Positions 1,851-43,345 of a stretch of DNA of 45,462 nucleotides are shown piece after piece; the stretch's first letter is position 1; every line of letters begins with the position of its first letter. The translations under genes were made by a program, and so were the position numbers. Source of the stretch: Seison nebaliae (taxonomy: Eukaryota > Rotifera > Pararotatoria > Seisonacea > Seisonidae); contig JALJEE010000433.1 in assembly GCA_023231475.1 (NCBI GenBank), forward strand, positions 1-45,462, given 5' to 3'. The notes under the pieces are model-generated. The model was not told where the DNA came from. It worked only from the letters and a program-made list of their open reading frames with translations, and did not search any database.

Positions 1851-2220
1851 TCATTTCTTTCCATTGAACAATTTCTCTTGTTCTTCAATGAAACGTGCCA
1901 ATTTAATGTCACGTTGAGAGAGACCATTAACATCATGTGTTGTCAATGTTATTTCTACTCGATTGTAGACATTGAACCATTCGGGATGATGATCCATTTT
2001 TTCCGCTTTGATGGCTATCGATGTCATGAAAGAGAATGCCTAAACCGAAAGAAGATGAATAAAGTCGAGAAGGAAGAAAATACACTTCTATAAAATTAGA
2101 GAATTGAAATTTTTTTTTAATTGCATCACGCTCCTCAATATACTGCCATCCGTTTTTGAGGAATTCTTCTGTTAGAACAGTCTCACGTTCATTTGGAGAA
2201 AATGCATTTGTCGAATTCAT
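1851..2220 (-). CDS. PCBD: Pterin-4a-carbinolamine dehydratase (PCD/DCoH)
   Basis: Two exons (2220-2086 and 2039-1851) joined across a 46-bp intron (GTGTAT...TTTAG) give 107 residues, the usual length of the family. The enzyme dehydrates 4a-hydroxytetrahydrobiopterin, which is formed each time an aromatic amino acid hydroxylase turns over, and so recycles BH4. The diagnostic segment follows the splice junction: [17 protein letters not shown], then [17 protein letters not shown]. The paired histidines of DHHPEW and the later TTH supply active-site residues in the family. The vertebrate protein is also a dimerisation cofactor of HNF1, which cannot be judged here. The start is the first ATG compatible with the family N-terminus ([16 protein letters not shown]). 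The neighbours are unrelated. Confidence 0.95.
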
Positions 2221-4536
2221 TTTAGTTTTATTTGATAGAAAATTTTTTGGAATAAGAAAACTTTTGTGTTTGTATTGTCGTATATGTGAAAAGATGAAAT
2301 AAGCGCCATTCTGACACACAGTTTTATACATGACCATTTGGAATGAAGCGTGAAAAGATGGAAATATGTATTAGTTGTAGATGAGAAGCCTGCTTTTCTA
2401 TTTGCATTTTATCCTTCGACTAACGGATTGACGTCTATTGTTCAAGTATTCTTATACACCTCCTCTTCCATTCTCCTTCTTACACTATTTTGTACCGAAA
2501 CGAACCATAGCAGTGGTAGAAGAAAGGATATTGATTGGAATAGTGTTGAAATGACAATATGAACTAGATTGATCTCAATTCTCATAATTGTTTCTTTAGA
2601 GAAATAGAATAAGAAAAAATAAAAAAGAAAATGTGAAAACTTGGTATGGATACGAATCGTATCTTTTAATTGGGAAACTTATAGATTTAAATTGAAAAAA
2701 ATGGAAAAATATTAGACGGTTTGTGTTCAGGGACAATTTTTGTTAATCGATCAGTAAATTAAAGGACCTTCTGTCTCTTATACATTCATGTATAATTTAT
2801 GATGAATTGCCATAGACATATTTAATTCTAATTTCTATTGTTGTGGATGATTGATCTGACAAAAACTATAAATTCCAATTGGGATTCCTCTTAAAATGAA
2901 ATATTCTAATATCGAAAATTCTAATTCGGTCGAGTCGAACTGAAGTATTAAAAATCAATTTCATATTCATCTTTTTCACCACTTAAAGAAGAAGATGATG
3001 TCCTGATTGGAAAAAACAAGAAAATTATTTTAAATTATTTATCAAAATTATACTATTGACAATTCAGTAAATGAAAAGGATGAGGAACAAATAAACAAGT
3101 TAAATGTATTTGACGTAAATAAATTGCGGGAACGATTTTGGGGGTGAGAAAATCATTTGAATAAGAAGGAAGTTCTACTCGCATTTTATTTACAGACGGT
3201 CTACCAGAACAGAACATATTCCTTTGCGAACAATCGACGTTTATATTTGTGTTGTTTGTCATGTAATTGGAGGACAAGTCTCGTATAAAAGACAATAAAG
3301 TTTTGATGTGAATAATTATTTAAATTTCATTCACTATTCTTTCCTTTTTTATTTTAAATTACTATGTTATGTGAATGATTTCCGGATATAGAAAAGGTTG
3401 AACGAATGGCTGGTCGTTTCATGTGACATTTCAACCACATCACACCCAACAATTACTGCCATCACTTAAAGATTTGGTGTTGTATATTGGGGGTATCGTT
3501 CGGTGTTGCAATGTTGTAGAGAAGTTGCACATTCTAATTTTGGAAGGAGGGGCAAAAGAAACAACTTACATTTTTTTGTATTTCTTTTAATGAAACCATA
3601 AATTGTATGAAGATTGATGACCAAATATATAGAATGGATGACACCCATCCGTTGTCATAGTAACTGAAGAATATAAAATTTTAGTGAATAATTATTTTAT
3701 TTCGATCATCATTATTATTAGGACGAGACATAATGGAATAGAATAGTCTTTATGTGAAACGACTGATTAAAAGAAGGAGATAGATGAGAGAGAAGTTTAT
3801 TAAATAAAATAAAATTAATATATAATAGTTGCCTTTCATCATCATGAACTTTATGACAGACATGAGAAGAAGACGTCATAAAATTTTTCTTCTTTCTTCT
3901 TTTCGCACTCCAACTAATATTCCACCATCATGTCAAACGAACATTTTTTTCAGGCAATGGTTTCTTCCAGTCTCTTCTTGTTGTTCCGGTCTAAAAATTT
4001 TAGTTCCGATAAATTTTATGCTTGATTATATTTCTCTTCTTTCTCATCTCCTTCATCTCAGATCACTTATCTCAATTAATTTGAAGTTATATGGAATTGT
4101 TTCATTCATCTTTTTCCTTCTCTTCGTCCAAAGAAGAAATGGAAGAAACATATGAAAATTTTCTCAAAATTTTTCGTTTTTTCCAAATTTTACTTCCGAA
4201 AAAAATTCGATTCAAGTTGTTCAATCAAAAATTCCCAAATTATTATCGAATTCTGACGTTATTCTAATTATGAAGTAGGAGGAATGAAACCGAATATTTT
4301 CCTAGTTAATTATGTAATAGAAAATTATGGAGAGTTCACCATACTACTCGGAATCGAGCAGTCTCTTATTTGAATTCCCCAAATTACGTTAACTGACGAA
4401 AAGTGAAGAAAAGCGAAAATACAAGAATTTCTGATAGTTCTAATTCGACATGATAAGTGATAGCGAAATGGAATTTGCTTTTTAACTTTAAAACTAGTCT
4501 CTTTCTCATTTTACTTTAGGTTTAGTAGATGTCATT
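2221..4536. other. Region with no confident gene
   Basis: About 2.3 kb without a recognisable gene. On the minus strand a plausible last exon ends at about 2950: after TTTTTTCCAATCAG, one frame reads TSSSSLSGEKDEYEIDF and stops. Another open stretch at 3053-3295 (minus) could be an upstream exon, but no splice pair joins them in frame. Around 3466-3648 all three minus frames stay open, so no frame can be chosen. A perfect X-box lies at 3651-3664. A small minus-strand gene at 2950-3650 is possible but not shown. Confidence 0.35.
3651..3664 (-). promoter_or_regulatory. X-box (RFX/DAF-19 type) match
   Basis: GTTGTCATAGTAAC satisfies all positions of the RFX consensus GTHNYYATRRNAAC. No ciliary gene can be identified beside it. 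If functional, it would serve the possible minus-strand gene at 2950-3650, or a gene whose exons I cannot see. Confidence 0.3.
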
Positions 4537-5154
4537 ATGAATTGTTTTTTTATTTCGGGAACTATTATTGTCTTCTGTTCATGCGTATTGCTACTCACAT
4601 CTCTGTTGACGAAAGAATGGTTCTCTAACAAATCCATTACAATGGCAATTTACGATTACTGCACATTGAAAGTGAATGACAATAAGGAATGTTTCACATT
4701 TAAACGACACGAAAACTCTGATAATGACAATGATCAATGGACGAAGGATGTGATACTAATGGTTATTGCCAGCCTTTCAGGAACACTAGCACTTTTTACG
4801 TTAATGGTCGCTCTCATTTCATTTTATTTACCGAGACTACGATATAAGAAACGAACTTATATTCCTCTCGTTTTGGCAGTTTTCTGTTTATTAACAAGTT
4901 ATTTTTTTATCTTTTCTTGTGAAATATTTCAAAATTTTCTTATTTATTAAGGTGGATTAATCGCATATACGTTCGGGTTCTTCCTCAGTGATCTCAAAAC
5001 GAAAAAAATCGACGATATTGGTTACTCGTTCTGGTGTAATGTGAGTGCAGCAATTGGATTTATCTTCGGTGTAATATTTTTCCTGTTGTCATTTCTTGAT
5101 TCGTACGTGTCGAACAAATCAATGAAACATCTCAGACCGACGTTGAACTACTAA
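4537..5154 (+). CDS. Clc-like / claudin-superfamily four-TM protein 1
   Basis: Two exons (4537-4897 and 4952-5154), intron 54 bp starting GTTATT, 187 residues. Four membrane segments are visible: about 6-24 (IIVFCSCVLLLTSLL), 71-94 (VILMVIASLSGTLALFTL), 105-128 across the splice junction, and 147-165 (IGFIFGVIFFLLSFL). The topology is that of claudins and the nematode Clc-like family: a first extracellular loop with W and C residues (KEWFSN, YDYCTL, KECFTF), a short intracellular loop, and a short basic tail. Function is not defined; claudin relatives take part in cell junctions or act as channel auxiliary subunits. The gene at 14039 is a paralogue: both share the pattern (D/K)(V/K)(V/I)ILMVIAS at TM2 and an intron in the same place in TM3. 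Confidence 0.75.
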
Positions 5155-5592: not shown

Positions 5593-5606
5593 GTTGTCAT
5601 GACAAC
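5593..5606 (+). promoter_or_regulatory. Palindromic X-box (RFX type) match
   Basis: GTTGTCATGACAAC is a fully palindromic match to the RFX consensus GTHNYYATRRNAAC. It lies 440 bp downstream of the first Clc-like gene, and no recognised gene starts nearby. Confidence 0.3.
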
Positions 5607-8058
5607 GGTCTGCAATAATAAAATAATATTTACTCATTCACCTTATCATACATTCTTTTTTCTTGTGTATATTCCTCTATGCAAAACGGTATTCTACTTT
5701 TACCTTACCCTCCCACTTATACAAGATGAACACTAGTGAACAGTATGAAAATTCTCAGGTTACTGTCATTCTTAATCGTCCGACCGAATAACTTGGGAAA
5801 AACTTCGTTTTTTATATTGGATTAATGACATTTACCATATTTGTCTGGATGCCACTCTACTCCACCTCTCCAATAGAATAAAATGAAAAATAATAGGAAT
5901 ACATCGCCGCATATTATTAGAAAGAACAACAATTCGTTTTATAAATGTGCTAGCTTCCCATAAAAAAATATGGTTGGAACGGTAGGCAATCGTAGTGCCA
6001 TTATCAAATATCGCACTTACGACATATCCGTCATAAGTAGAATGATTGGAAATGGAACGATTGGAAAGAAAAGATTGAAGATAAATTAAGTAAAATCGTT
6101 CTTCTAACACTTCCCCTTCACTTTTATGTTTCTTTAAAAGAACTAATAAATTATTAGTAATAATTGATGTAATAATAATTTATTATCGAATCTCGAATTA
6201 TCGTGACCATTCTAATGTGGAAGAAATAACATTAACAACTTTTCTTAAATCATATGTCATTAAAAATTCAACAGCAATATGTGACTCATCCACACGAATA
6301 CACAAATGTCAGATGATGTTATGGTAAATGAAGGAAGTCATCATTTTCATTCCGGAAGAAAAAAAAGTAAAATTTGTCGATCAAAAAAAAGGAAAACTTT
6401 CTCACTTTCACGTTTCCATTCGGCATTTGGTAATTCCTTTCTTACTATGTCCTCTTTTCAGTTCTAATATTTTATTAAATTAAGACGATTCCAATTATCC
6501 TCCAAAAATGTCATCAATTCAACATGAACCTCTTCCCACATGTACCACTTTCACAAATCGAAAAGAACATTCCCTCTACAAAGAAGACCAAGGAGATAAA
6601 TATTGTATATTCAATTAATGAAAATATGATATGTTTCTCGTGGTTTCTCTTATCGAAATTCCACTCATTCACCCGTTCTGTGTCCTCTTTTTAAGCTGTT
6701 CTTACCACTTAAACAATTATCATCATTTCTCCCTCATTCAATCATAAATATTCGACCGGCTTCTTCTTTTAACGTTCTTTCTCTCTTCGACGCACGAAAA
6801 TTAGAAGAGAACTCTTATTCTCAATTTGTTCAGTATTTAAGAGGTGAATTATACGATTGAGAAGTTCGTTCATGAAGAAATAAAATCCTCGAGTCAAATC
6901 TAAAGTGAAGATTGATTCAATTCTTCTCCATTGAAACAAAATCCAATTTATTTTCTCTACATAATTTATGAAAGGCAATTTATTTTTTTACCAATGTCTT
7001 CTTTAAATTTTTCCTGAGAGAAGGACGCCATAATACTCGCGTTTACTCATATTTTGAATTAGAACTCTTATTTCATCGGTTATTAGATATTCTCAAAAGT
7101 TCACTTCATTGTAACAAAATTATTATACGAGAATTACAAACAATTGTTCTATTTCCGTTATGAAATTACTTTAATGTTTAAGAGAAACCCTTAGGTAAGT
7201 GTCGCACCGATTGGAAGAATTTAAGAAGGTTTTCATTTCAATAAAAATATATTATTTGACTAACTGTTGATATGGCAATAAATTGACCATTGAGACATTT
7301 GAAATGCAAATAATAATGATTTAAAATTATTTCCAAATTTTCGCTACCTGCAAAACAGTGATTTCGCAACACTATTTGAATTGAAACCATGATTATATTG
7401 AGTCACGGAAAGAAGTGAATGCTATTTCAATTTACTTCATCTAACTAATACGTTCATTGCTCTTTCACGTCAATAGAAACAATTTGTCATTCACTTACGA
7501 AAGAGAGTCTTATGGTCATTTCATTAGAGAAACGAATTGGTACCAAGGTAATCCAAGAAAAGTAACTTTTCTCTTTTACCAATTCTTTTCATCATATTTA
7601 TTTTCCTTCCACTATTTTCTTCAGTCGCACATTCTATTAACATTAGTCGTTTGTTCATTTCACTTCTCCCTTTCATATTTCATGTTATTCTTCATCTCAA
7701 ATTCTATTCCATACTGTTCTTAAATTTACCTGAGTTAGATGTACATGCGATTTGTGTGTAATTTCGTCTCCGTTCCTATACGATTGTATATATGGTATTC
7801 ATACAATTATATTATTTCTAGTCTAATTTGCTTTCTACTTCTTTCGAGAGAGACGGAAACTTATTTGTTCATTCTTTTTTCACATAAAAGAAAGTTTTCC
7901 GATATAAAAACGTGAATGACAATTTCCAATATCCATAGGATTCATGAAGACAAACTAACAAAATTGAAAGTTTCGTGGAAACTTCAATGATAAATTTAAA
8001 TGTTAAACATTGTTCTTTTAATTCAGTGTGAATTTCACACTGTGAAATTGAGAACAAT

Positions 8059-8072
8059 AATTGACGTCAATT
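8059..8072. promoter_or_regulatory. CRE-like 14-bp palindrome
   Basis: AATTGACGTCAATT is a perfect 14-bp palindrome with the bZIP/CREB core TGACGTCA. No neighbouring start site is known. Confidence 0.3.
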
Positions 8073-8589
8073 CGTATATTTTTTCAATATTTAATTTAAA
8101 TATTTTTGTTGATAACAATCTTCTTTTTTTGGGCGTCGATAATTAATTATATTTATCATCTTTTTCTACACAGCGTGTAGGTTAGTTGTCGGACAGATTG
8201 TAACTCTAAATAAAAGTTTTGTAAAGGTCCGTTCTCATTCCATAATTAGGACAGTTAATTTTTATTCTTTTCCACAATTTTCAATTGCTTCAGAAAAAAC
8301 GATAGTTCAAAATTTTACAAGGCAATGAAGAAGTAACTGGAAGGATTGTAGCTGTTTATAAAATTTTTAAAAAGACGACAGTTATCAACTCCCAGTTAGA
8401 ACAAGTCTTCAATTTATTCTTCAACTGTTCATTATTAACAGATAAACGTGTTAGTAAGTTTAGAAGATTCATAGATTTATCTGGAATATTGATTGACGAT
8501 ATTTCTCCAGGGATAAAAATTCAAAGAGATATATCTAAGATATGTAAGTTTCAAACTTATATGAGACGAAGTATATGTTATGTCAGATG

Positions 8590-8754
8590 GAATTGGAGAA
8601 CGACATTTTCTAGACTTTTGTGCTCTGTGTGAGGAAGAGAGTACAGAAAGACTTTTTATAAATGATAAGATTAAAAGAGAAAAAAAATTAATTCAATACA
8701 TTAGGCATGAGAAACTGAAGAGATTAATGGTAAATTATGACGTTTTCATTGTAT
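8590..8754 (+). mobile_element. Possible retroelement C-terminal remnant
   Basis: One plus frame reads ERHFLDFCALCEEESTERLF and continues, rich in K and R, to a stop at 8754. A C-x2-C pair followed by acidic residues near a stop codon resembles the C-terminal zinc-knuckle region of non-LTR retrotransposons. No reverse transcriptase is visible upstream, and the resemblance is weak. Confidence 0.2.
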
Positions 8755-14038: not shown

Positions 14039-14808
14039 ATGAATTACACGTATAATTGTTTGACAACAGAATTGTATAAAGAGAAACATCATAGTATGGT
14101 TCTGGCGTTTCATCTTGGTAACGTCTTTGCATTTCTCGCAACAGTCGCTTTCCTCATCGCAATTAGATCATCAAATTGGTGCCAAACTGAAATCGATAGC
14201 GGTGATGGAAACGAGAAGAAATATGGAATTATTCAAGAAGGTATCTTCGAAAATTGCACCATCATCCACAAATGGACCAACAGTAGTACACTATTATATG
14301 AACTCCAGAGGAATACAAGCAGCACCGGTTTAACCAATTGTCAACCGTTACGTCAATTCGAGGATATAAAAAAATGGAAAGCAAATATCAATGGTTTCAT
14401 TCAAAAATATCTTCTTAATTTAAAAATTATATTTGACAGATAAAAAAATTATTTTGATGGTCATTGCTTCAGTAACGGCATTTCTTGGTGTTTTTACTTG
14501 TATACTGTCCTTATTCGCGGGTTGTACTCGTCGAGGTATATTATCTCAACGCATGATTGAAATTATCATATTCTTCTGCTTCTCATCATGTTTGAATGTT
14601 TATTATATTGAATTTATTAAAACTTTTCATTTTAGTTGTATTAACAACGACAACATTTTCATTATTCGCCGCTGAATCGAGGAAGACTGTTGGATCATTC
14701 AAATGGGGATTCTTCCTTTGTGTGGCTGCCGCTGGTGCATATCTGATTGCATTCAGTTCATATTTTATTTGTCGAGCGAATTGTAGTCGAACTCAGAGAG
14801 AAGACTGA
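14039..14808 (+). CDS. Clc-like / claudin-superfamily four-TM protein 2
   Basis: Three exons (14039-14393, 14440-14589, 14636-14808) with two 46-bp introns starting GTTTCA and GTTTGA. The chosen second donor keeps TM3 intact (MIEIIIFFCF then VLTTTTFSLFAA), matching the paralogue at 4537. Four membrane segments: near residues 22-42 (HLGNVFAFLATVAFLIAI), DKKIILMVIASVTAFLGVF, the spliced TM3, and WGFFLCVAAAGAYLIAFSSY. The first loop carries W and C residues (SSNWCQTE, ENCTIIHKW, TNCQPL) and NxS/T sites. Translation may start at 14039 or at the second ATG (14096), which sits directly before TM1 and better matches the paralogue. Role unknown; likely plasma membrane. Confidence 0.72.
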
Positions 14809-15596: not shown

Positions 15597-16135
15597 TTAT
15601 TTTTGTGCGATATCAATATCTTTGATTGCGAAGAATTTGTCATGAGCCGAATCCACTTGAAATCGTACATGTTTCGCTTCCATTTTTTTTGAGAATGTTA
15701 TTTTGGTCGGTTTAAATCCACCTCTTGGATCCACTCGAGAGATATCTGAGTTAACATAATTTATATGAAATAAGGTAAACGGGTTACTAACCTACAGCTT
15801 TTACTTTTTTGAAATCGGTGCTGGTTGTATCAGTAGAGATAGAAATGAGTAATTTGTTGACTGAAATTAATATCAAGAAATTTATTTGTAAATTAGAACA
15901 AACTCCCATAACTGACCAGAATAATTTCATTGAAATGTAAGAGTTGGGGAAACGTAATGACAATAAATTGTGGAACGAATCCACTGGAAACCCAATAACT
16001 TGATGGATTTCTATAAAGACAATCACGATTTCAATCGAAAATGAAAAGAAACCCATCGATGACATGGTCGGGTCGATGCACATCGTCATTCGATGTTGCC
16101 ATCGAGACAACACCTCCAATTTTACGCAGTCCCAT
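15597..16135 (-). CDS. IFT25: Intraflagellar transport protein 25 (HSPB11)
   Basis: Four exons (16135-16053, 16010-15913, 15860-15792, 15745-15597) joined by introns of 42, 52 and 46 bp, all starting GTT, give 132 residues, close to the family length. The galactose-binding-like jelly-roll fold is recognisable from the signature ATSNDD...HVIDGNPSSYW, followed by SGFVPQFIVITFPQLLHFNE and, near the C-terminus, KHVRFQVDSAHDKFFAI. IFT25 binds the small GTPase IFT27 in the IFT-B complex and helps move signalling proteins out of cilia. C. elegans and Drosophila lack it, so its presence constrains the organism. Two X-box motifs lie 65-108 bp upstream of the start. Confidence 0.92.
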
Positions 16136-21564: not shown

Positions 21565-22940
21565 ATGCCGCCACCAGCTCGAAAGTTTTAATTACTCAAT
21601 AAAATATTTCATTCCATCGTCTTCTTTGTATTTGAGTAAGGTCGAACATTTGGAAAATTCTTTCTCTTCTTGGCCTTCTCGCCGTTATCGGTCTGGCCAT
21701 AGCATTGACTGTCGTTCTAGTAAAGGATGATGATGAATGCACGACTACTACAACTGTAGCTGGGTTTATATTATTTATTTTTATTTTAATACTTTATTCG
21801 TGCTAGTCGAATCCCAAATTGAGTAACATAGAAGATTGAGAGTATAAAGTATAGTAACAGAAAGAAACAGTTATAAGAAATATCTTTTTAAATTCACATT
21901 TAGTTTTTAATTAATTGAATATTTAGAATACAAATTTAGATTAATAGTAGCAAAAAACGATTATAAATAAAATAATAATAATAATAATACAATTGGGAAA
22001 TGGTAATGGAGAATATAAAGTTCCGTAGAAAAATCATCAAATTACCTGTTCCATATCATTCAATGACTATATGGATTTATTTGAAGTACGAAGACAATTT
22101 TCCAAACTCACAAGAAAAAATGAAGAGTAGATGAAAAATGAATGTCAAATTGCCTCATTACAATTATGGCTGGGGGAATGGTCCATGATCCTTAAATGAT
22201 AAGGATCGATCCTTCTATATATTTTGGGAAAAAAAATCCAGACTCCAAACGACTCCTATACATTTATTGGATCGATCTTAGGTACGAGCCACAGTCATAC
22301 TCAGGATCGATCCAACACGTCGTTTGGAGTCGATCCATCTCAACTTCAACTGAAAATATTTTATTGAAAATAACTTTAAATTTTATCTAAACAATCTATA
22401 ATTTTCGACATTAATCTAATATTATAGTATGAAGTTATATATGTTTAAGGTCTATTTTTTAAGGGCTACAAGATGGTTTGATTGGAGATAACCGGTAGTA
22501 TCTGCCAGTGTATGTGAAGACGGAATGGGTGTGGAAAGGACACTTATACAACTAATTATACAACTAAAAAAAAGTAACATTCTAAAATATTGGAAAAGAG
22601 AGGGAAGAATTATTGAATTGATTTAAACTTGAATGAAATCATGTAAGATACATAACACACTGGAAATGATGAGATGAAATTATCGTAGGGTAGAAGGGAA
22701 TGTATATGTTATGAAACCATTTCAAATTTAATTTCTTTTTCTTCATTTCATAGAGCAACCACCACAACTACATCAGCGGCTGACAATCGTTTACATAAAA
22801 AAAGTTTAAAAAATATTTCTCTCAAATTCTAACCCTTTCTCTTTTTAAGACTATATTCTCCTTTTATTGATGATACTGATGGTTGGTTGTGGCAATCCGT
22901 TCCACAACCAATAACAACTCAACCAATCCAACAAATTTAG
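21565..22940 (+). CDS. Small type II single-pass membrane protein
   Basis: Best model: exons 21565-21584, 21641-21763 and 22850-22940, giving 77 residues. The N-terminus is short and basic (MPPPARKSNIWK), followed by one membrane segment (ILSLLGLLAVIGLAIALTVVL), an acidic juxtamembrane DDDE, one cysteine, a threonine run, and an extracellular tail containing YSPFIDDTDGWLWQSVPQP. Introns start GTTTTA and GTTTAT; the second is 1086 bp, by far the longest placed here. A possible cassette exon at 22754-22805 would extend the Thr run (ATTTTTSAADNR) but cannot be joined in frame to the last exon. TTTTCAG directly precedes the ATG, as at a trans-splice acceptor. No family recognised; a type II surface protein is inferred. 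Confidence 0.6.
22201..22338. repeat. GGATCGATCC palindrome cluster with inverted arms
   Basis: GGATCGATCC occurs at 22203-22212 (within a perfect 14-bp palindrome) and 22304-22313, with a one-mismatch copy at 22269-22278 and a partial copy near 22330. A perfect 13-bp inverted repeat, GACTCCAAACGAC (22241-22253) and its complement (22319-22331), brackets 65 bp. All of it lies in the long intron of the small membrane-protein gene. Confidence 0.7.
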
Positions 22941-24524: not shown

Positions 24525-26905
24525 TTAATAAAGTGTTCTCAATTCAGCATTCTCCTCTCGAAGTCTCGTCACTTCCTCGATGAGTTCGGCATTCATTTGA
24601 GAGATTGGAATCAATTTTTCCATTTGTGTCTTTATCTCGTTCGTTAATTTTTGTTGGTCCCATTGAAGTGAAGAGATTTCGAAACTGAGATCGACACTCA
24701 TTCCGAGGAGAACGGTTTTGGTTTTTTGGAATTCATCCCGAATATCTTCCATCTGTTTTGAGAGAGTGGACAATGTCAATTCTCCATCATTGTTCTTTTC
24801 ATCCACCATCTGAGTAAGATCGTCAGCACCATCATCGTTCGATAATGTCCTCGTATTACGATGTACACGTCGATTAACGTTATCGTAACTTTTTTGCCAT
24901 TTATTCTCTTTCAAATCGGGATTATTCGCCAAATGTGTCAAAGAATAGAAAGGTGCATTCGATTGTTTCATCAATGTGGATTCATCTTGTTTTTGAGGTT
25001 GAGAGGAATTACCACCATCCAACGGTATCACAACATTTCGACGCTCATTTGAATTACCATTAGAATTATCGATGTTAAATGTATTTCTCGAACTTGTCTT
25101 TAAATTATTAATAATCATATTTTTGTTATTGTTGTTGTTATTGGAGGTTGAGTTATGAAAAGTAGAAAAATTTGATTGATCAAAATTATCCCGTTGATGA
25201 GTTAGATTACTAAAATCGCTGCCGTTTGAGAAACGATTTTCATAATCACTTTTCGTTGTTGTCAATCGATCGATAAATTCTTTTTATGATTATTGGAGAA
25301 TAGTAATGAAATAAAAATAGAAGAATTAAAGAAAAAACTTGATCGATATTGATCTCTTTCGATTTCATTATAATTTCTATTCAAATTCTTTTCTTGTATC
25401 GGTTTCACTTTAAATATATTTATGAAATTATTTTACAACAAATTATTAACATTGTACTTGTTGTTGTTGTTGTTGTTGTTGATTCATAGTAGATTGTGAA
25501 TAATAATCACTAACACGATCATCAGTCAATTGTCTAGGATGAAATGGTTTATTTGAGAGACTGTTAACAGATCGATCCGATCGTTCCGTCGATTCTCCAT
25601 TCAGTTCATTTGACAAAGGTTTTTGTAAGATGGCTGATAAATTAGATGATTCTGATTTACTCGATCGTACTTTCGATAATAAACTATTATTATTATTATT
25701 ACTATTATTGATTGATTTATCGTTTTCATTCTAATAATAAAAAAATGAAATTACAAAAAATTTTCTTTTACAAATTAAAATTTTTTTCTAACAATCTCAT
25801 TAAATCGATTAACTTGTTGTGGTTCGTTTGATAATGATGATACAGATACTCGACTACTAATAACATTATGTCGGAATTTTAACGAACGTAATGGACGTTC
25901 ACAGCAAACAATGGTATTTACCGGTTTCAAATCGGACATGTGTAAATATCTCAAATCATAAATTAACGCATTTCCATCCGCCGTACCAGCTGCTATCGTA
26001 TAACCGGAAGTATAAATATCGATACTACACAATTTCCTTCCTGTCTGATACATTTTCAATTGTTTCTCTTTCTTCACGTCGAACAAACCAAGACGTCCGT
26101 CCAAACTGACCGATACCAACAAATACGGATTAATGGGCGAGAATGCCAATTGTGCATCTTCTAACGTCTGAGTTTTTCGGAAATCCTGAATACATTTCTG
26201 CGCGTTACAATCCCAGAGAGTGATAGCTCCGCTTAAATGAGCCGAAGCGACCAAATAAGGTCGATGATGTGAGAAGAAGGCGCAACTAATTCCCCCATAA
26301 TATTTCCGATTAGACGATGTTCGTTGAGAAGTCGACGTCGAATTACTGTGAACACTGTCCGAATCTTTCGATGGTTGATGACAAACATAACCTTCAACAC
26401 ATAAGGGAAATCGATTTCCAGTGACGAAATTATGAGTCACCAGATCTCCATTTTTTGTTCCGATGAGAACATTGGTATAAGTTCCATTGAAATCTAATGC
26501 CGTCACTTGACCATTATTACCCACATATTGTTTAGCAATCTTTATTTCATTTCTATCATTATTATCGTCATCGTTAAAAACATTTCCGTCATCATCTTCG
26601 GTTGAAAGAATGTCATTTGATTGATATAAATTCACAATTCCATTCATATGACCTGTACTGAACATATCCTCCGTAAATCGACATATTACCGCCTCGTTAA
26701 TATTATTCAGCGTCGTCACATAACCATCAGAAACGCTAATGATATTCGCATGATCAGCTGTCACACTACATGAGCCCAATTGAGTGTACTCATTATTCCA
26801 GACACAATCCGTTAAGAAATCCTCTTCGAATGGAACGAATTCTCGATGTAACGTATTCGTTTCGAGACTCCAGATTTTTGCCGTATCCGAAACGGTGAGA
26901 AACAT
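24525..26905 (-). CDS. NEDD1: NEDD1, gamma-tubulin ring complex targeting WD40 protein
   Basis: Four exons (26905-25793, 25730-25451, 25407-25339, 25279-24525), introns 62, 43 and 59 bp, all starting GTT, 738 residues. The N-terminal ~310 residues form a WD40 propeller; clear blades are SAHLSGAITLWDCNAQKCI, FSPINPYLLVSVSLDGRLGL and AAGTADGNALIYDLRYL. A low-complexity linker (N and Q runs, Ser-rich) follows, then a C-terminal coiled coil ending in LIEEVTRLREENAELRTLY, the part that binds gamma-tubulin in NEDD1. NEDD1 docks the gamma-tubulin ring complex on centrosomes and spindle microtubules. The 69-bp third exon was found only by requiring GTT donors and a continuous frame. The first ATG (26905) starts inside the first blade, so a short upstream exon is possible. 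Confidence 0.88.
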
Positions 26906-27550
26906 CACTAACACCTTTTATTCTTGATATAGAAGGAAATATTTCCTGTCTCTATACAACCACTAACTATTTAGAGATTATCTACATTCATTATTTATAT
27001 GTCTCAAATCTTATCTTCCCTCTAATAAGTCGGATGAGAAGACGAGTGAAGAGGGAAACTGGAATCTTTTATCCACTATATGTCCAGGAGCGACGATGAA
27101 TATTTAGAGGAAAAAGAGATATAGAAGATGTAAGTAGAAGAGAGCTCTTCTTCCGATTATGTTTCTTTTTTTATTTTTATTTTTTTGATATTATTAATTC
27201 GACCACTTACTATTAAATTCGCCCGAGCTCAAGTTTTCATCTTCTTCTCCTTTCTATCTCACTCACGAAAAACCATTTAATCGATTCCTTCTGTTCATTC
27301 ATTCTAAGAGAGGATATACTAGTGGCAATAGGTGACTAAAACCTAGACGAGAACGAAAGAAAAATAGTTGTAAGTGAAAAAAAAACATGGAACACAGAAG
27401 AGTATCAACAGAAGAATTAGAGAAGTTTTCGATTATTTTTCGTAATTCTTTTCCACTTAACTGAATAGTCCATTTATTTATTGTTATTCATCATTCAACC
27501 ATTCAATTTATTCATTCTGTTTGGTCTCATCAATATACTTTTTTGGTGAC

Positions 27551-27657
27551 CGGCGATTTCGTCACCCTATGTTTTTTAAGTGAAAATCGGTGATTTCGTC
27601 ACCCACAAAACGGTGATTTCGTCACCCATTTAGCTGTATTTCGGTGATTTCGTCACC
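27551..27657 (+). repeat. Four-copy hairpin repeat CGGTGATTTCGTCACC
   Basis: Copies at 27551-27567 (one mismatch), 27588-27604, 27611-27627 and 27642-27657. Each forms a hairpin GGTGA-TTTCG-TCACC. The spacers of 20, 6 and 14 bp are unrelated to one another. A separate GGTGAC precedes the first copy. The array begins about 210 bp from the transposase relic at 27868-28089 and may belong to that element. Confidence 0.8.
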
Positions 27658-27867
27658 AATTAATAAAACATTTTTTATAATTTGCTTCATGTTTATGGAA
27701 ATAAATATAATAAAATGATTTTAATTATCAATGGAAACTTTGTTTCATTATTGAAAATACAATAAGAGTAATTGTTGTTTAATTGCATAATTTTATTATT
27801 TTAATGTGATAATATGTGATAAATAAAAAATATACATCGAGTGGTTGTAGTATTGAAGTTGTTTTTG

Positions 27868-28089
27868 CCAAACTTCGCGGCAAATTCGACGGTCTAACCT
27901 AGCCAACGTGCACCGATTCCTTCTGGTTTACTTCATCCTCGTCCCATAATATTTATCATTTTTAAACGAATAAATAACTTTCTTCGACCGATTAATTTTC
28001 TTGTCGATATCCGCTACTGAAACACCTTCGGACAATAAGGCCGTTATCTGTCCCTTTTCGAACTCCGATAATGTTTTTGCTTTCCCCAT
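27868..28089 (-). pseudogene. Tc3-like (Tc1/mariner) transposase N-terminal relic
   Basis: From an ATG at 28089 the minus strand encodes 53 residues including MGKAKTLSEFEKGQITALL and INRSKKVIYSFKNDKYYGTR. This is the bipartite helix-turn-helix of Tc3-type transposases, with the RS..VI..Y..D...YGT pattern. A TAA at 27928 interrupts it; the same frame then continues with TLARLDRRICREVW, the start of the second DNA-binding subdomain, before homology ends. The catalytic DDE domain is absent. It is a dead, internally deleted DNA transposon. Confidence 0.85.
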
Positions 28090-28618: not shown

Positions 28619-29013
28619 TTCCCCCATAAGGTGAATACCGCTCCGGAATTCGAAACAGTTCCTGAGAATTGGTCAATATGCCGATGAATTTTTAAAACCG
28701 ATATATGGTTGTTAATTGGTTGTTATACTTATATACGAATCCCGGAGCGGTATTCACCTTATGGGGGAATTCACCCTGTTTCTCATTTTCGGAGAGGAAC
28801 TCACTCAAATATCGGAGCGGAATTCACCCAAAAAGATGCTTTCGGAGAAGAATTCACCCAAAAGTAGTTTTTCGGAGAGGAATTTACCCAAATTTGAGGA
28901 TTTCGGAGAGGAAGTCACTCTATTTTTAGTTTTTCGGAGAGGAATTCACTCTAATTTCAAATCTTCCAAGAGGAATTCACCTCCTTTCAGTTTTTCGAAG
29001 AGGAATTCACCTT
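28619..29013. repeat. Inverted repeat joined to a ~30-bp periodic array
   Basis: A perfect 28-bp inverted repeat (28619-28646 and 28742-28769; core CCGGAGCGGTATTCACC) brackets 95 bp. From the right arm onward the motif TTCGGAGAGGAATTCACCC recurs at about 28742, 28789, 28812, 28840, 28870, 28901, 28933, 28963 and 28994. The last six intervals are 29-32 bp, with unique A/T-rich spacers of 10-13 bp. Copies drift progressively toward the right end (GAGAGG becomes CAAGAGG, then GAAGAGG). The array keeps one plus frame open for over 100 codons, but this follows from the repeat and I do not call a gene. Confidence 0.8.
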
Positions 29014-29074: not shown

Positions 29075-29247
29075 CGGTCATCCATGTCACTAAACTAATG
29101 GAGGAATTGATTGATAATGACGTTCTCTTTAATATGATGAATGTTGATTTGTAGAAATGATGAATCGGAATAAATGAATTTTTTTCTTAAAAAATTTATT
29201 AAAATTAGATTTCATGTAGAGAGAAAAGAAGTTTCCAATTAAAAATC

Positions 29248-29904
29248 TTACTGATATTTCCAGCTAAGTTTCAATGGGAAATATAAAAGTACTTGAAGGA
29301 GGAAAACCGATGAAATGATGAGAGCACTTATCGATTGACAATAAATATGAATGAAAGTTTTATTTTCCATAATTGCTTCACAATTGGACGGTAACAGAAT
29401 AAGTAAAGAATTCTTGAACAAAGTGACATCGGAACAAATTGTGGTGATTTGCAGGTAACTTCCGTAGAAGAATAGTGCCATTCCATATATCTTCATCTTA
29501 ACTGTGCACTTATTGTTATGATTGGGTCTGTATGAACATGAGTTCCAATGTCGTCCGTACAGCATGAACATTAGAGTGAAGTAAATGAAAATTCCATGTT
29601 CCGTTAACGAGATCTTCTTATAACAGTAGGCCAGATAGTAGGAGTGGAGGAAAATGACGAGGAATGGAATGAAGATATAATCGACGATTCGTGTCCGATT
29701 CCGCACATACTCCACCACACTCAACAAACTACCTATTGAGTAGACGATCAGATAAATCTTCCACTTATTCTCCAACAGATAATCTGAGAGAAGAACACAT
29801 CGGATTATTATCAATTGAATGATCAATCCCAAACACCATCGTAAATATGGTGTAGTCGTCACATCATAACCCATTAGTTTCAGATGTCCTATTCTCAAAA
29901 ACAT
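29248..29904 (-). CDS. Unrecognised polytopic membrane protein
   Basis: A 218-residue open frame with an ATG start and no intron needed. Five to seven hydrophobic segments alternate with short polar loops: CLGLIIQLIIIRCVLLSDYL, IYLIVYSIGSLLSVV, DYIFIPFLVIFLHSYYLAY, GIFIYFTLMFMLYG, IYGMALFFYGSYLQITTI and SALIISSVFLLQVLLYF. The tail is short and basic (KLSWKYQ). There is no signal peptide, active-site motif or family signature that I can name. Length, composition and the intact frame make a real gene likely, though a multi-exon gene with this as its main exon is also possible. Confidence 0.5.
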   Translation of the reverse strand: MFLRIGHLKLMGYDVTTTPYLRWCLGLIIQLIIIRCVLLSDYLLENKWKIYLIVYSIGSLLSVVEYVRNRTRIVDYIFIPFLVIFLHSYYLAYCYKKISLTEHGIFIYFTLMFMLYGRHWNSCSYRPNHNNKCTVKMKIYGMALFFYGSYLQITTICSDVTLFKNSLLILLPSNCEAIMENKTFIHIYCQSISALIISSVFLLQVLLYFPLKLSWKYQ

Positions 29905-33529: not shown

Positions 33530-34334
33530 ATGAAAAATTTGGTGATCTCTTGTATTCTCTTCTGGATTCAACGACCACTCGTCGCCCAACAACTGGCACG
33601 ATTCGATAACGATGATGACCGATCCGACTCTCTCAAATGTTTCAATTGTTACGTGCCTATGTTGGGTGTGACGAAGTCGACGGTTTATTGTTTGGGGATC
33701 ACTCACTTCTTCGAGAAGAAATTGGAAGTAGAACGAAAATCATTGAACAAGTCGAAGAACGAAATACTGGAAGAGAATTCGGTATTAATTCCCCGTCAGG
33801 TTTTCGACTATCAATTCGTTCAAGCCGATTACCAACAACAGAGCGATGGGAGAATTCTATTTCCGGCGGTGATATGTAGAAGCGATGAAGTATGTTTCGT
33901 TAGTATATTACTTCCAATACTTCTTTATTAGTCACCTTTTATTCCTTCTCCGAAAACTATATCTACTACGACTGGATGTTAATTGGGTTGACTTGGAAAT
34001 TGTGTTGGTGATCATTCCATTGTTGACGAATGTTAATGGAATACTGATGATACTGATGATAATGATGAAATTGAATAATATATCCATCATAACGAATTAA
34101 TAGACAGAAAGAGTGATATTCAGCAATGTTGACACTTCATTCAGACGTGGCTGCATTTCTCGCCAACAATGCAACATGTCGGCTTGCATCGAATATCATA
34201 ACTATGTCGCATGTATGCATTGCTGTCAAACAAACCTGTGCAATCGAACTAACAACTCGAAAAGAATAATATCAAATGATGATATAATGCTTATCATCGG
34301 AATGTTTTCCATTTTAATAGTAATGTTCATTTAA
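33530..34334 (+). CDS. Ly6/three-finger GPI-anchored protein
   Basis: Two exons (33530-33898 and 34104-34334), intron 205 bp starting GTTAGT, 199 residues. A signal peptide (MKNLVISCILFWIQRPLVAQ) is followed by the Ly6 entry LKCFNCY, further cysteines at VYC, VIC and EVC, and after the junction RRGCISRQQCNMSAC, then the family hallmark CMHCCQTNLCN. Twelve cysteines in all, two more than the basic ten-cysteine three-finger fold. The C-terminal hydrophobic stretch IMLIIGMFSILIVMFI after a polar linker is a GPI-anchor signal. Such proteins sit on the outer cell surface and often modulate receptors or channels, or shape junctions. The loop between the third and fourth cysteines is unusually long (~60 residues, with dibasic and Gln-rich parts). 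Confidence 0.85.
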
Positions 34335-34708: not shown

Positions 34709-34778
34709 AATATATTTACACATCTTTCCACTTTCTTTCCATTATGAAACATTATGTGGAAGAATAGCAATTCTTTCT

Positions 34779-37598: not shown

Positions 37599-38232
37599 AT
37601 GGGAAATGAATATTCCAATATCCCACTTGATCTTCCCGTCAACTTCGATTTGGAAGAGATCAAACGACTCGGTTCATCTTTTTCTTCTCTTCTCTCAATC
37701 TCAACTCAAACTTTTCATAGGTAAACGCTTTCGTCGAATCGATTTGGATGGGAATGGATCGTTATCTGCAACTGAATTCAAATCAATTCCCGAACTTGAT
37801 CAGAATCCACTCGTCCAAAGAGTCATCGACATCTTCGATACAGATAAAGATGGCGAGGTGGATTTTAAAGAATTTATTCAAGGTCTCATTTCCATTAGAC
37901 TATTTCTTTTACATCTCCATTTCCTTTCTCTTCTCCCCGAAGGAATCTCATTATTTAGTGTGAAAGGTGAAAAGTTGAGTAAATTAAGATTCGCCTTCCA
38001 AATTTACGATGTTGATAACGACGGGTATATAAGTAACGGCGAACTATTCCAAGTGCTCAAAATGATGGTAGGCAACAATTTGAAAGATACGGCCCTCCAA
38101 CAAATCGTGGATAAGACAATAATGAATGCAGATAAGGACGGTGACGGTAAGATCTCATTCGAAGAGTTTTGTGATGTCGTTGGCGATTCGGTGAAAACGA
38201 CGATCGAAACTAAAATGACCGTTCAATTATGA
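37599..38232 (+). CDS. CNB: Calcineurin regulatory subunit B
   Basis: Three exons (37599-37671, 37721-37882, 37943-38232) give 174 residues. It starts MGNEYSN, the N-myristoylation signal of calcineurin B. Four complete EF-hands follow: [39 protein letters not shown] and [13 protein letters not shown]. The linkers [14 protein letters not shown] and [15 protein letters not shown], which face calcineurin A, are near-invariant in the family. It is the calcium sensor of the calcineurin phosphatase. The second intron (37883-37942) is 60 bp with no stop in frame, so an unspliced transcript would encode 20 extra hydrophobic residues between EF2 and EF3. Its donor is GTC, the only such donor in the window. 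Confidence 0.97.
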
Positions 38233-38349: not shown

Positions 38350-41076
38350 TCAGTCTTCAAAAATACCTTCAATAATTGGATGTGCCAAATGGAAAGGTGA
38401 TTCCTGTTATTCTCATCATCAACAAATTCATCATTCGTCAAATGAAATTCTAACCAATAATTGTCGTCCATCTGAACTATTACATGATTGAGTGATGGGA
38501 GCACGATTATAGAAGTTTTGAAGTAATTGTCGACTGAACGGATTGATATTCATCATATTGAATAATTTCTTATGATCATTTGATCCATTAGTCGAAATAT
38601 TGAACGAACTAAGAAATGGAAAAGAAGGAATATATTTATAGGAATTATAATAACTAATTGTAAGTGGAGAAGAGTTTATCTAATGATTTCTCATCAACAG
38701 CCGATTTGCACAATTCCAAATTGATTGATGGGTAATAATGGATGTAATTAAGACACATCTCATCGAAGATACTCGTACCACCCTACGTTTCAAACGAAAT
38801 GAAGAGCAAATTAACATATTACATAACAATACATTAACATAAAACAAAGTTACCAACAAATGTCATTTTATTCCGTTCCATCGTGTTATGGAGACATTGA
38901 TGAATAATCATATCTCCCTGAATTGGAAATTAAGAAGAAATTCAATTGGACTTCATACGAACTGGAAATATTTTCACTTCATTCTGTAACAAACGAATTT
39001 CTTGAAATGTCGAATCATAATTCTCATCACGATTCAATGATATTATTTTCCCGTCTTTCCGCACGACATATGTGGAGACTCCAATTCCCGTCAAATGAGT
39101 ATGTAATTGAGAAGCGAAAACGGATATACCTTTTTCTGGTATGATCTTCATGGAACTGAAATGTTTCTAAAGTAGAAATAGAATTGGAACCTGTTCCGTA
39201 CATTCAGATAAACAGAAAGCAGTTTGAATAAATTTTGGGGATTGAGGTGGAATTGAATTAAGTTCGTTATATTCCAATCCCAATTCCATGATAGCGGCAT
39301 CGTTCGACCGGATATCAGGTGTGATGGTGAACCGAATTCCTGATGAATCTCTCACTCCAAGAATATGTCGGGGATTATTATAGTGAATCTCCAATACGAC
39401 ATAGGGAGGAAATGCTTCACCTCCAACAGGTGTGCCGGTGTTTGCAGGATAAATAAATTCCTAAAAGATTTCCAAAAAAATTTTGAAAAAAAATTAAATT
39501 TTTCTTCAAAACATATGAGAAACATTAGCACCCATGGCCCATGCACCCAATACTTTGCGGCATGATTCCAAGCCTGAAGGCTTCCCTTCACTCGTACATC
39601 GACCGTTATATTCCACGACTTCATCATCCGTCCAACAATGGAACAATTCCATATGGTGAACGATTCCTGATGATTCTGGCGACAGTTCCGCATCAAACTG
39701 AAAGAAAGAATTATTTTTTTACTCCTCAATATATTAACGGCGATTATATGATGTTTGTGAGATAATTTGGGGAATTTGAATGTTGTGCACCAATAGGTGG
39801 TCTCATCCGATGGTATTTCCACATTTCTCGCTCGGAATTTTATGGTGAAATTATTTGGGGTAGAATGAAGAGTGGAATAGAATAGTTTACTTTTTGGTAA
39901 TTGAATCATTTGGTAAATCGGTTCTCCAAAATGCAACTTGTTCAACATCGGAAGATCATTGCCAACAACGACGGAGGACGTGGACGATAATCCTTTCTCA
40001 ATATTGATCATCACCAAATGAGTAGTTCCTACCTGCGAAACAAAAACGTTACCAAGATGATGTTTCGGTTATCTAACTAAAATTTCATAAAACGGAATCG
40101 GCGGTTCTCGTTCTCGTTCGAATTGCACATAATTAAATGATTTCCATTTGAATTGTTTAATTTTCTTCAAAGTATTCATGGTGGAACTTCTTCCATTGAT
40201 TGAGCCATTGACGAAAAGAAGATGCTACAAATAAATGATTATGATTAATATGTAAATAATGAACTTCGATTAAACGATGTTCATTCGTATGTTGAGGATT
40301 GATGAGAATGAGATCGGAATCGATTAAAGATTTTTGAGATTGAGTAAATCCGAAAACGATTCCATTTGGTGAATGATTCAAGTTAGTTCGTATAATGAAA
40401 TCGAACGATTTTACATCACTCACATCATCACCATTCTCATTAACCGTCTTCACTCGATTCGTGTTCCAATACAATTTCATTTCATTTTTATTATCTAACA
40501 CGACCGAATTATAATTGGTCAATGATTCTTCGAAATTCTTCGACGATTCTCTAAAAATAATCACGAAATATTTGAATTCGAATTCTCATCGAAAATGAAC
40601 CGAAGACAATTCTTGAAAATTGATTTCAAACTGTCAATTCCATCGGACAATTTGAAGGATTCTAATAACTCTTCGATACAAGTCAAAATTGATTCGACTG
40701 ACGACTCTTCCAAATTCTTCAAAAATTCTCCACTTCGTTTTCCCATTAAATTTTTTGTGGACAAGGAAAACTGGTGTGGGAATTTGAAGAGATCTGAGTT
40801 GGTCTTTTCTCCATTCCAATCGGCATATGGAAAACGGAAAATTGGCTTCTGCCAAAAAGGAACTAATGGTCCGAAAATATTCGGACGGAAAAAAGGAAAT
40901 ATTTTCTTCCGACGAACTAAACTGCTACGATCGATGGCATTGTGAAGATAGTGAATTGCCGTTGGATAATTATCGAGAGTTCTCAGATGATGATCAATGT
41001 TTGTTAGTAAGTCGTCGATCGGTACTGAGTTAAGTTGGAGAAGGAAGAGAGTGAAAATGGTGAGATGGAGAAACAT
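38350..41076 (-). CDS. TBH: Tyramine/dopamine beta-monooxygenase (copper type II)
   Basis: Eleven exons (41076-40601, 40550-40265, 40224-40078, 40032-39739, 39697-39524, 39460-39191, 39145-38963, 38917-38858, 38782-38655, 38608-38455, 38403-38350), every intron starting GTT, total 741 residues. Signal peptide MFLHLTIFTLFLLQL; an unusual ~140-residue extension; a DOMON domain (~165-310); then the two-domain copper monooxygenase. CuH ligands: HH in KHHII (~397) and H in VHHMELFHC (~415). CuM ligands: HTH in QLHTHLTG (~564-566) and M in FDEMCLNYIHYYP (~639). ETTYWC and LELCKSAVD are also typical of DBH/TBH. It hydroxylates the side chain of tyramine or dopamine in secretory vesicles, using ascorbate and oxygen; in most invertebrates the product is octopamine. 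MOXD1-type orthology cannot be fully excluded. Confidence 0.9.
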
Positions 41077-41405: not shown

Positions 41406-42140
41406 ATGGAAGAGATTCATCCGATAAAATTTAGTTTAAATGATAATGGACGATTTTATGCTTTTTTAAATCTGTACAATCATTCAGTGAATGCGTCACT
41501 ACTTTACAAGATCCTATCGAACAATCGGTATTATATCGCTAAACCGGCTATCTGTATTATTCCACCAAATAAGACAGTTCAATTAGAGATCATTCAGAAC
41601 ATCGACTATCCGGACGAGGAGAAAGTGAACCATCAATTCATTATCATTTGCCTCTTCCACCAGAATATCGAGCTGGGTGACCGTGAGAAATTACAGACTT
41701 TATTCAACTGTTAATTTATTTTAAGTTGATGTCAATGAAACTTTCATTTCGTAGCGAATAAAGAGAATGTGAGTCGAATTCAATTTTTTGCTAATCTACC
41801 CGATGACTTTGACGATTACGACGACGAAGGAATGAAAAACTTAAATTGTCATTTCACTAAATCTCATGATATCCGATTGACACATCCCATCATTGAGATT
41901 GTGGAGGATAAGGACTACGATCTAAGAAATAGGAATAACAATGCTAAAAAGGAGTCGGTAGACAGTTTAACATTTTCACTCATCGCTTATCCTTTGTAAT
42001 TTGAAGTAGAGGGTCAGAGGAAACAGAAAAAGAATTCGACGGAACCGTATTCCGATATCAGTTCGACCGGTACCAATCCACCGTCATCTAGACCACAGAT
42101 GGGGAAGAACGTTAACAATTTCATTCGTTCAACTAGTTAA
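41406..42140 (+). CDS. MSP-domain protein with charged tail
   Basis: Three exons (41406-41709, 41755-41964, 42007-42140), introns 45 and 42 bp starting GTT, 215 residues. Residues ~5-100 fit a major sperm protein/VAP immunoglobulin-like domain: IKFSLNDNGRFYAFLNLYN, a strand with YKILSNNRYYIAKPAICIIP, PNKTVQLEIIQN, and FIIICLF as the last strand. The rest is acidic, then polar (DDFDDYDDEG, then KQKKNSTEPYSDISSTGT) with no membrane anchor, unlike VAP proteins. MSP domains bind FFAT-like peptides or polymerise in nematode sperm; which applies is unknown. Its start lies 329 bp from that of the divergent monooxygenase gene. Confidence 0.75.
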
Positions 42141-42179
42141 AATATTCTCTAATAGTTCGTGGGTCAAACTTATCTTCAA

Positions 42180-43345
42180 ATGATTCTCATACCCGTTCTC
42201 CTCATTCTACTCTTCTCTGCCGTCACTCTCCATTTGAGGAATCGTGGTGTGACAAGTTGATTTTGGAGAGTTCCATCATTTTTTTTCATTCATTTTCAGA
42301 AATTACCGTCGTCGCCAAACAAAAGACGATGAGACCACATTTGAAGAAACCGATATTAGTCATTCCTCATCAACAAGCGCATCCTCAACTTGCTTATCAT
42401 ACAGCCATGCGACCACATCCACGTCCACGACCTCCATTTCGACCCGGTTCCGCATATCCGTTCTTTCAATCCAAATTTCCCTTGAGAGTCGAAGAGGAAG
42501 AATATCAGGAATATCCAACTGAAGAAATTAGTTATGGGAAAGTGATGAATCATCAGCCGATCAATCCAACTGGTGTCGATTACCATTATGGTGGTGTCAA
42601 TCACCGGGGAAGACCGGGTGGAAGGATCGGTGGGAGACCAGTGGGCAGATCCGGTGGAAGGGGATCAATGAGGACAGGGAAACATAACAAATTTACGAAA
42701 GCGAAGAAATTGGCGGAACCGCCGATAGAAAAAACGGCAGTTAACACCCATACATTTATAGGTAGAAATCAGAAGATTAATCGAGCAAGTCATAAGATTG
42801 GTGCAAGTTCGGGTCATATGCCCATTGTTCAATCGAATAGTGTTCGGAGTATGATGGTGAACAGTGAAGTGGAAGCGAAGCAAAATCGAGAAATTGAGAA
42901 TTTAGTTCATGACAATTTGGCATTGGATAATCGAAATTTTATGATTAATCAAAATATCGGAGGTAACAACCGAATCGTTCGTGGAGCAGATGAAAATAAT
43001 GAACGTAGTAGAAACTTAAAACGAAGACATGTTCACACACTTCCCACATTTCAGGGTTCCCGCTATCGAGGTGTTCGTCCTAATATTCGAGATTATCGTC
43101 TTCTCGTCAAAGGAGCAATTGGGAAAGATTTCAAGTCACATATGGTTGATGTTCCTCGATTGCATCCTCTACAATTACAAGTGAAATCGTTAATGTCTGG
43201 TGATCTACAAGTGGATCGACCCGTTTTCAGTGATTACTTGAAAACGTTGTGTGAACAGGATCATTATGACAGAATTCTCCGAATCAAATGTATGGACACG
43301 GTGAAAAGAAATGCAGCGAAATTCAAGGGGAAAACTGTCAATTGA
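42180..43345 (+). CDS. Secreted Gly/Arg-rich basic protein
   Basis: Two exons (42180-42246, 42300-43345), intron 53 bp starting GTGTGA, 370 residues. The first exon supplies a signal peptide (MILIPVLLILLFSAVTLHL). Next come a Pro/His/Arg-rich part (MRPHPRPRPPFRPGSAYPFF), an acidic patch (VEEEEYQEYP), a repeat-like GGR segment (GRPGGRIGGRPVGRSGGRGS), possible dibasic processing sites (NLKRRH), and a C-terminal region that looks folded (HPLQLQVKSLMSGDLQVDRP, then two cysteines in TLCEQDHYDRILRIKCM). I do not recognise the family. An extracellular matrix or peptide-precursor role is a guess. It starts only 39 bp after the MSP-domain gene ends, on the same strand. Confidence 0.65.

Follow-up and report, generated by a model that had tools for sequence, protein, structure and literature searches.

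The first bases of the U1 small nuclear RNA (snRNA) are treated as frozen because they pair with every 5' splice site (donor) of a genome at once, and to our knowledge these bases are rarely seen to change. In the standard register U1 base 6 pairs with intron position +3, and in engineered suppressor U1 snRNAs a compensatory base in the 5' end restores a changed donor. Among the closest natural systems, a survey of yeasts found U1 candidates in 227 of 230 Saccharomycotina as well as in 9 of 10 outgroups, and the segment ACUUACC did not vary in any of them; the switch of the +4 donor base from A to U within the Saccharomycotina had no compensation in U1 or U6 and was associated with METTL16 and SNRNP27K (PMC10581693). 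The U1 5' end is reported to be strictly preserved in the larvacean Fritillaria borealis, in which most introns are non-GT/AG (PMC13326754), and the diplonemid S. specki has an alternative U1 where a C stretch replaces the 5' end, both of its U1s being comparably complementary to the donors (PMC12621601). Here we analysed the donors and the U1 genes of Seison nebaliae, a tiny marine rotifer of the order Seisonacea, starting from a 45,462-nucleotide stretch of its DNA (contig JALJEE010000433.1; this whole stretch is called the window). Introns beginning with GTT were present in every sampled piece of the genome (21/21), and A, the complement of the U at +3, stands at base 6 in three of the four U1 loci found. 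We consider it very probable that GT(A/G) has given way to GTT as the donor core and that the major U1 snRNAs have changed along with it.

GTT donors in the window and in the sampled genome

The window is contig C187 in an assembly of 36.03 Mb and 846 contigs. When the introns of its genes were placed anew, 29 introns were obtained, of which 27 began with GTT, one with GTC and one with GTG, and this is significantly more GTT than the 47% found after intronic GT in general (p = 1.7e-7). The original prediction, which had counted GTT at 25, GTG at two and GTC at one of 28 introns and acceptors TAG 12, CAG 8 and AAG 8, was thus confirmed in the window and found to extend across the sampled genome, and the acceptors gave the same picture (TAG 14, CAG 8, AAG 7). 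The spliced products of the NEDD1-like gene (738 amino acids) and of the TBH gene (741 amino acids) are identical, letter for letter, to the deposited proteins SNEBB_001398 and SNEBB_001402, respectively, and 13 introns of the window (10 in TBH and three in the NEDD1-like gene) are therefore in exact agreement with deposited proteins. This indicated that the deposited gene models use the same 13 GTT introns. Among these are TBH introns 1 and 2 and NEDD1-like intron 2, where a preference for GTT had earlier helped to choose the junction. The GTG donor of the PCBD gene and the GTC donor of the calcineurin B gene are both supported by homology, showing that exceptions to GTT exist. The introns and their support are listed below, where HMM stands for the gene-finding hidden Markov model described further on.

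2040..2085, minus strand: PCBD intron, GTG..TAG (exception); homology FNRAF/FIEAF is continuous across the junction, in comparison with human PCBD1
4898..4951, plus strand: Clc-like A intron, GTT..AAG; gene model
14394..14439, plus strand: Clc-like B intron 1, GTT..CAG; the HMM uses the same donor and a later acceptor
14590..14635, plus strand: Clc-like B intron 2, GTT..TAG; gene model
16011..16052, minus strand: IFT25-like intron 1, GTT..TAG; gene model
15861..15903, minus strand: IFT25-like intron 2, GTT..CAG; gene model
15746..15791, minus strand: IFT25-like intron 3, GTT..CAG; gene model
21585..21640, plus strand: type II membrane protein intron 1, GTT..AAG; gene model only
21764..21806, plus strand: type II membrane protein intron 2, GTT..TAG; gene model only, the weakest placement
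25731..25792, minus strand: NEDD1-like intron 1, GTT..TAG; identical deposited protein
25408..25450, minus strand: NEDD1-like intron 2, GTT..AAG; identical deposited protein
25280..25338, minus strand: NEDD1-like intron 3, GTT..AAG; identical deposited protein
33899..34103, plus strand: Ly6-like intron, GTT..TAG; continuous cysteine-rich Ly6-type frame, the HMM uses the same donor and another acceptor
37672..37720, plus strand: calcineurin B intron 1, GTT..TAG; exact homology, EIKRL-GKRF
37883..37942, plus strand: calcineurin B intron 2, GTC..AAG (exception); exact homology, missed by the HMM
40551..40600, minus strand: TBH intron 1, GTT..TAG; deposited protein, not recovered from homologues
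40225..40264, minus strand: TBH intron 2, GTT..TAG; deposited protein, not recovered from homologues
40033..40077, minus strand: TBH intron 3, GTT..CAG; deposited protein and Brachionus homologue
39698..39738, minus strand: TBH intron 4, GTT..CAG; homology and deposited protein
39461..39523, minus strand: TBH intron 5, GTT..TAG; homology and deposited protein
39146..39190, minus strand: TBH intron 6, GTT..AAG; homology and deposited protein
38918..38962, minus strand: TBH intron 7, GTT..CAG; homology and deposited protein
38783..38857, minus strand: TBH intron 8, GTT..TAG; homology and deposited protein
38609..38654, minus strand: TBH intron 9, GTT..TAG; homology (beside an alignment gap) and deposited protein
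38404..38454, minus strand: TBH intron 10, GTT..CAG; Adineta homologue and deposited protein
41710..41754, plus strand: MSP gene intron 1, GTT..TAG; gene model
41965..42006, plus strand: MSP gene intron 2, GTT..AAG; gene model
42111..42155, plus strand: MSP/secreted protein intron 3, GTT..TAG; gene model only, the HMM joins both genes here
42256..42299, plus strand: secreted protein intron, GTT..CAG; gene model only

The sole GTA donor called in the window belongs to a candidate GTAAGA..AAG intron at 29186-29251 on the minus strand, which comes from the gene model only, without homology support. Three further features of the window were seen by eye: a palindrome-like GGTGATTTCGTCACC unit repeated at 27543-27660, a GGAGAGGAATTCACC-like unit repeated at 28740-29010, and a short open frame at 27928-28089 on the minus strand that resembles the start of a Tc1-type transposase.

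The HMM was self-trained on the window together with one 10-kb piece from each of 20 other contigs, a total of 245,462 bases, with GT..AG required and with no preference at positions +3 to +6 at the start. In the first pass, made with no donor preference, 80 of 118 well-flanked introns (at least 60 coding bases on either side) had GTT donors, compared with 18 GTA, 12 GTC and 8 GTG, and after convergence the numbers were 181 GTT, 15 GTA, 4 GTC and 1 GTG among 201 introns, or 249 GTT of 281 without the flank filter. A second start that was biased to GTRAGT also moved to GTT (178/201). With the donor preference taken out of the trained HMM (donor-neutral decoding), GTT was used by 166 of 201 introns in the training sample and by 21 of 27 (27/44 without the flank filter) in a held-out set of 16 loci, 47.6 kb, that had nothing in common with the training sample. 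Two loci were left out of the held-out count, L026 because it overlaps the training sample and L027 because it shares its U2 gene; with both included GTT was found in 24 of 32 introns (32/52 without the filter). The log score of the HMM was highest when GTT donors were forced (-622457), followed by GTA (-623698), GTC (-623831) and GTG (-623872). The introns are short, with a median of 53 nt for the 281 introns, and the HMM misplaced exons of RFC5 and AMPK-gamma by some codons. The claim that GTA donors do not occur holds for the 29 introns of the window, whereas in the genome sample they are rare (15/201) rather than absent. Four of these 15 calls come from one piece and strand (L013) with a doubtful gene model, so the GTA count may be inflated, and the sequence GTAAG starts one of the 15. 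By eye, the translation of L013 at 6801-8728 (reverse-strand coordinates) resembles a decayed reverse-transcriptase element.

Introns were also placed by spliced homology alignment, in which GT-AG was demanded and which was blind to +3. For six conserved genes with homologues taken from solved structures (proteasome alpha-3 subunit, beta-tubulin, AMPK gamma, calcineurin B, a threonine-dehydratase-like enzyme and RFC5, the last having no homologue at the stricter cut-off), placement by homology only gave 22 GTT, 2 GTC and 1 GTA in 25 introns, which is again significantly above the 47% background (p = 2.4e-5). The single GTA was placed at an end of the proteasome gene with poor conservation, and the gene model uses a GTT intron there. 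Pooling these with TBH, aligned to two rotifer homologues, and with PCBD gave nine runs with 41 GTT, 5 GTA, 3 GTC and 1 GTG (50 introns, TBH being counted with both homologues); several of the TBH introns adjoin alignment gaps and their placement is not relied on, and the figure of 22/25 rests on the six conserved genes only. The total homology score of the nine runs was 6802 with any GT and 6473 when only GTT was allowed, compared with 2314, 2392 and 2295 for GTA, GTC and GTG, respectively, and among the 16 possible donor dinucleotides with AG acceptors GT scored highest (6802 vs 6124 for TT, the next). An unconstrained alignment reached a total score of 7148 and resolved intron ends only to within a few bases, for which reason the GT-AG-constrained version was used; 10 of its 27 introns allow a GT-AG reading that leaves the spliced product unchanged, and of these nine are GTT and one is GTC. 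Judged by this ranking of dinucleotides, Seison introns keep the ordinary U2-type GT-AG ends and are not of the non-GT/AG kind known from Fritillaria.

Misplaced introns, an assembly error or contamination could in principle produce such a pattern, given that the window and the U1 genes described below share a single draft assembly (846 contigs). Against this stand the junctions that are supported by homology to solved proteins and by deposited proteins, the reversed-sequence control, in which one orientation of 298 kb gave 5 introns, and the occurrence of the U1 change on three different contigs, and an artefact of this kind is hardly credible.

Relative to introns and exons, the information at donor position +3 was 0.72 bits, compared with 0.20 bits at +5, 0.14 bits at -2 (A 52%), 0.09 bits at -1 (A 45%, G 25%) and 0.01 bits each at +4 and +6, which are at intron background. 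This indicated that beyond GT itself, T at +3 makes up most of the signal. The purine at +3 and the strong +5 G that are usual for U2-type introns were not found, and the earlier statement that there is no +5 G preference needs to be corrected, since a weak preference exists (24% vs 9.5% in the intron background). In the HMM parse T follows GT at 47% of intronic sites (n = 658) and 33% of exonic sites (n = 5105). With introns that are 43% T, the excess of GTT might be regarded as a by-product of mutational bias in T-rich introns that has no link to U1. However, T at +3 reaches 83-90% in the donors while +4 and +6 remain at background, and such a bias would leave the change in U1 as an unexplained coincidence, which makes this explanation very improbable.

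U1 genes and their fit to the donors

A search with the Rfam U1 family (RF00003), in which the best 41 of 293 candidates were scored, identified at least four U1 loci above the cut-off (97.4-112.9 bits vs 69.5) with the consensus fold.

L001, contig C208: U1 with A at base 6 (A6), 5' end AUACUAACCUGG
L003, contig C647: U1 with A6, 5' end AUACUAACCUGG
L004, contig C762: U1 with A6, 5' end AUACUAACUUGG, also with U for C at base 9
L002, contig C208:6576-6739: U1 with canonical 5' end AUACUUACCUGG, 112.4 bits, about 1.5 kb from the A6 U1 on C208

Three of the four loci start with AUACUAACCU or AUACUAACUU in place of AUACUUACCU, so that an altered U1 5' end, which had been proposed from the donors of the window, is present in the genome. 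The first bases AUACU are found in all four loci, and the pairing segment reads ACUAACC or ACUAACU in the A6 loci and ACUUACC in L002. The U1A site in loop II, AUUGCAC, is kept in the three A6 loci and is AGAGCAC in L002. Pairwise identity among the four U1 genes is 62-67%, and in 15 of 41 predicted pairs both sides have changed with the pair kept. These observations suggest that none of the copies is freshly made or plainly decayed, and that A6 has lasted while the genes diverged under structural constraint. A conserved 3' box, (A/T)AATT(A/T)AACT, lies 8-18 bases past the U1, U2 and U5 genes L001, L003, L004, L026, L027 and L029; the form (A/T)AATTAAACT is common to the three A6 U1 genes, U2 (L026) and U5, the variant of L027 is TAATTTAACT, and L002 has a poorer, partial box, AAATTCAACT (7.1 bits, p = 0.028 compared with random places). 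When the genome was scanned for the pattern ATACTNACYTGGC, the four U1 loci came up together with one place that is not U1-like by eye; given that the reversed pattern gave 6 matches, the scan by itself proves nothing and the identification is carried by the Rfam family matches.

The fit of U1 to the donors was examined by replacing each of U1 bases 1-11 with every alternative base (33 single changes) and counting Watson-Crick pairs with donor positions -3 to +6. The change of base 6 from U to A (U6A) was the best of the 33 in all three donor sets, with mean numbers of pairs of 4.98 vs 4.15 for the canonical sequence in the donors of the trained HMM (n = 201), 4.49 vs 3.97 in the first-pass donors (n = 118) and 5.04 vs 4.20 in the homology donors (n = 25). 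The additional change of L004, C9U, ranked second in the trained donor set only. By a crude duplex energy, 175 of the 201 donors favoured one or both of the A6 forms only, 11 favoured the canonical form alone and 15 were ties with the canonical form.

It could be argued that the canonical U1 (L002) reads GTT donors despite the mismatch at +3, aided by the short introns and by proteins, and that the A6 genes represent minor or decaying variants, like the variant U1 genes of other animals. The score of L002 is indeed on a par with that of the best A6 copy (112.4 vs 112.9 bits), the introns are short (median 53 nt), and genes for U1-C, a LUC7-like protein, SNRNP27 and a METTL16-like protein are all present. 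However, the same change is found in three of four U1 loci and is by Watson-Crick pairing the best-fitting of 33, and it is the A6 genes that keep AUUGCAC, the stems and the 3' box, whereas L002 has lost AUUGCAC and has the poorer 3' box. On balance we find this explanation improbable.

A division of labour between the two U1 classes deserves more weight, although we still think it somewhat unlikely. Here the A6 class would serve the GTT donors and the canonical class either the GTA/GTG minority or a role outside splicing, such as suppression of premature polyadenylation. The stems are intact in both classes, GTA donors make up 15 of the 201, and L002 has a partial 3' box, all of which speak for this reading. 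On the other hand, only one of the 15 GTA donors starts with GTAAG and four of them are in a doubtful model, and L002 may be a relic.

Other spliceosome components and the proposed change

At least one U6 locus was found above the cut-off, with an intact ACAGAGA box (AUACAGAGA), and the suggestion that the U6 box might be changed as well is therefore not borne out in this locus. At least one U5 locus with an ordinary match, and U2, were also above the cut-off. A weak U2 copy, L028 (C796:78598-78799; 78.7 bits), has many broken pairs and no 3' box and looks like a pseudogene. With single U6 and U5 loci, both counts being lower bounds, nothing indicated that the assembly contains a second eukaryote. 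Given that the genes for U1-C, the LUC7-like protein, SNRNP27 and the METTL16-like protein are present, their loss does not explain the donor logo; loss of METTL16 as the cause of the missing +4 A was considered and rejected for the same reason. A bdelloid-like spliced-leader pattern gave 6 matches with two mismatches compared with 19 in the reversed-pattern control. COX1 had no match in the whole assembly, and the mitochondrial genome may be absent from it.

Under the reading that donors and U1 changed together, A6 would pair with the U at +3 and the helix between U1 and the donor would be restored, and the U9 of L004 would suit A, the commonest last exon base. The short introns would also fit the other option proposed from the window, a reliance on intron definition. 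Since neither the ACAGAGA box of U6 nor the U5 match departs from the ordinary, the catalytic steps that follow the hand-over of the donor by U1 are presumed to be normal. The A6 U1 genes are probably expressed and act in the choice of 5' splice sites, and the changes in donors and U1 would then represent a natural case of compensatory co-evolution.

Several observations weigh against this reading. The crude duplex energy placed U6G above U6A, because G-U pairs count in the energy, and energy alone would not single out U6A. An HMM in which both the donor and the acceptor dinucleotides were left free converged on no sensible signal. No clear common upstream promoter element of the U1 genes was found. 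Canonical U1 may still be produced, given the ordinary 5' end of L002, and there could be further U1 genes beyond the four. Pairing with the donor is weak overall (0.01 bits at +4 and +6, 0.20 bits at +5), and other factors may contribute to its recognition.

As to how a joint change of donors and U1 could have come about, we tentatively suggest that U1 was duplicated, that the A6 class (one copy with U9) arose and the donors moved to GTT, and that the ancestral canonical U1 was kept with a changed U1A loop for a separate job, giving two U1 specificities per cell. The canonical L002 may be a relic, may assist in a minor way with the small number of GTA/GTG introns, or may have a role outside splicing.

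Comparison with known systems

A search by term of the main text of the paper on the Seison genome finds neither donor nor snRNA, and splice sites come up in a single passage, which deals with homeodomain searches (PMC8351084). The joint change of GTT donors and U1 was likewise unreported in a literature search that covered titles and the beginnings of abstracts, with most subscription journals and bioRxiv lying outside it, and as far as searched we read this as a previously unreported natural co-evolution of U1 and the 5' splice site. Seison appears to have changed the U1 5' end, for which several U1 copies are possible stepping stones, and this makes the evolution of an RNA contact of one to all directly testable. 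It also offers a U1 specificity of natural origin for transfer to a model system. In practice, annotations of the Seison lineage may contain misplaced exons where the gene finder was trained on GTRAGT.

Entamoeba has GTTTGT donors, with T at +3 as in Seison but together with a strong +5 G. We know of no matching U1 in Entamoeba, and a literature search on these donors gave no paper. The engineered suppressor U1 snRNAs are laboratory-made and directed at single sites, whereas the change in Seison is natural and genome-wide. Compared with the U1 family RF00003, the Seison genes share the stems, the AUACU start and, in three loci, loop II AUUGCAC, and differ at base 6, which is A in three loci.

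Among the natural systems, the +4 switch of the Saccharomycotina resembles the case of Seison in that the preferred base of a single donor position changed throughout the genome, but in Seison the U1 base has changed and a METTL16-like gene and SNRNP27 are present (PMC10581693). Fritillaria borealis is, like Seison, an animal with donors that depart from the rule, but Seison keeps GT/AG and changes U1 (PMC13326754). In S. specki, as in Seison, a natural U1 gene with an altered 5' end exists beside an ordinary one, but the change in Seison is of one base and matches a genome-wide shift of the donors (PMC12621601).

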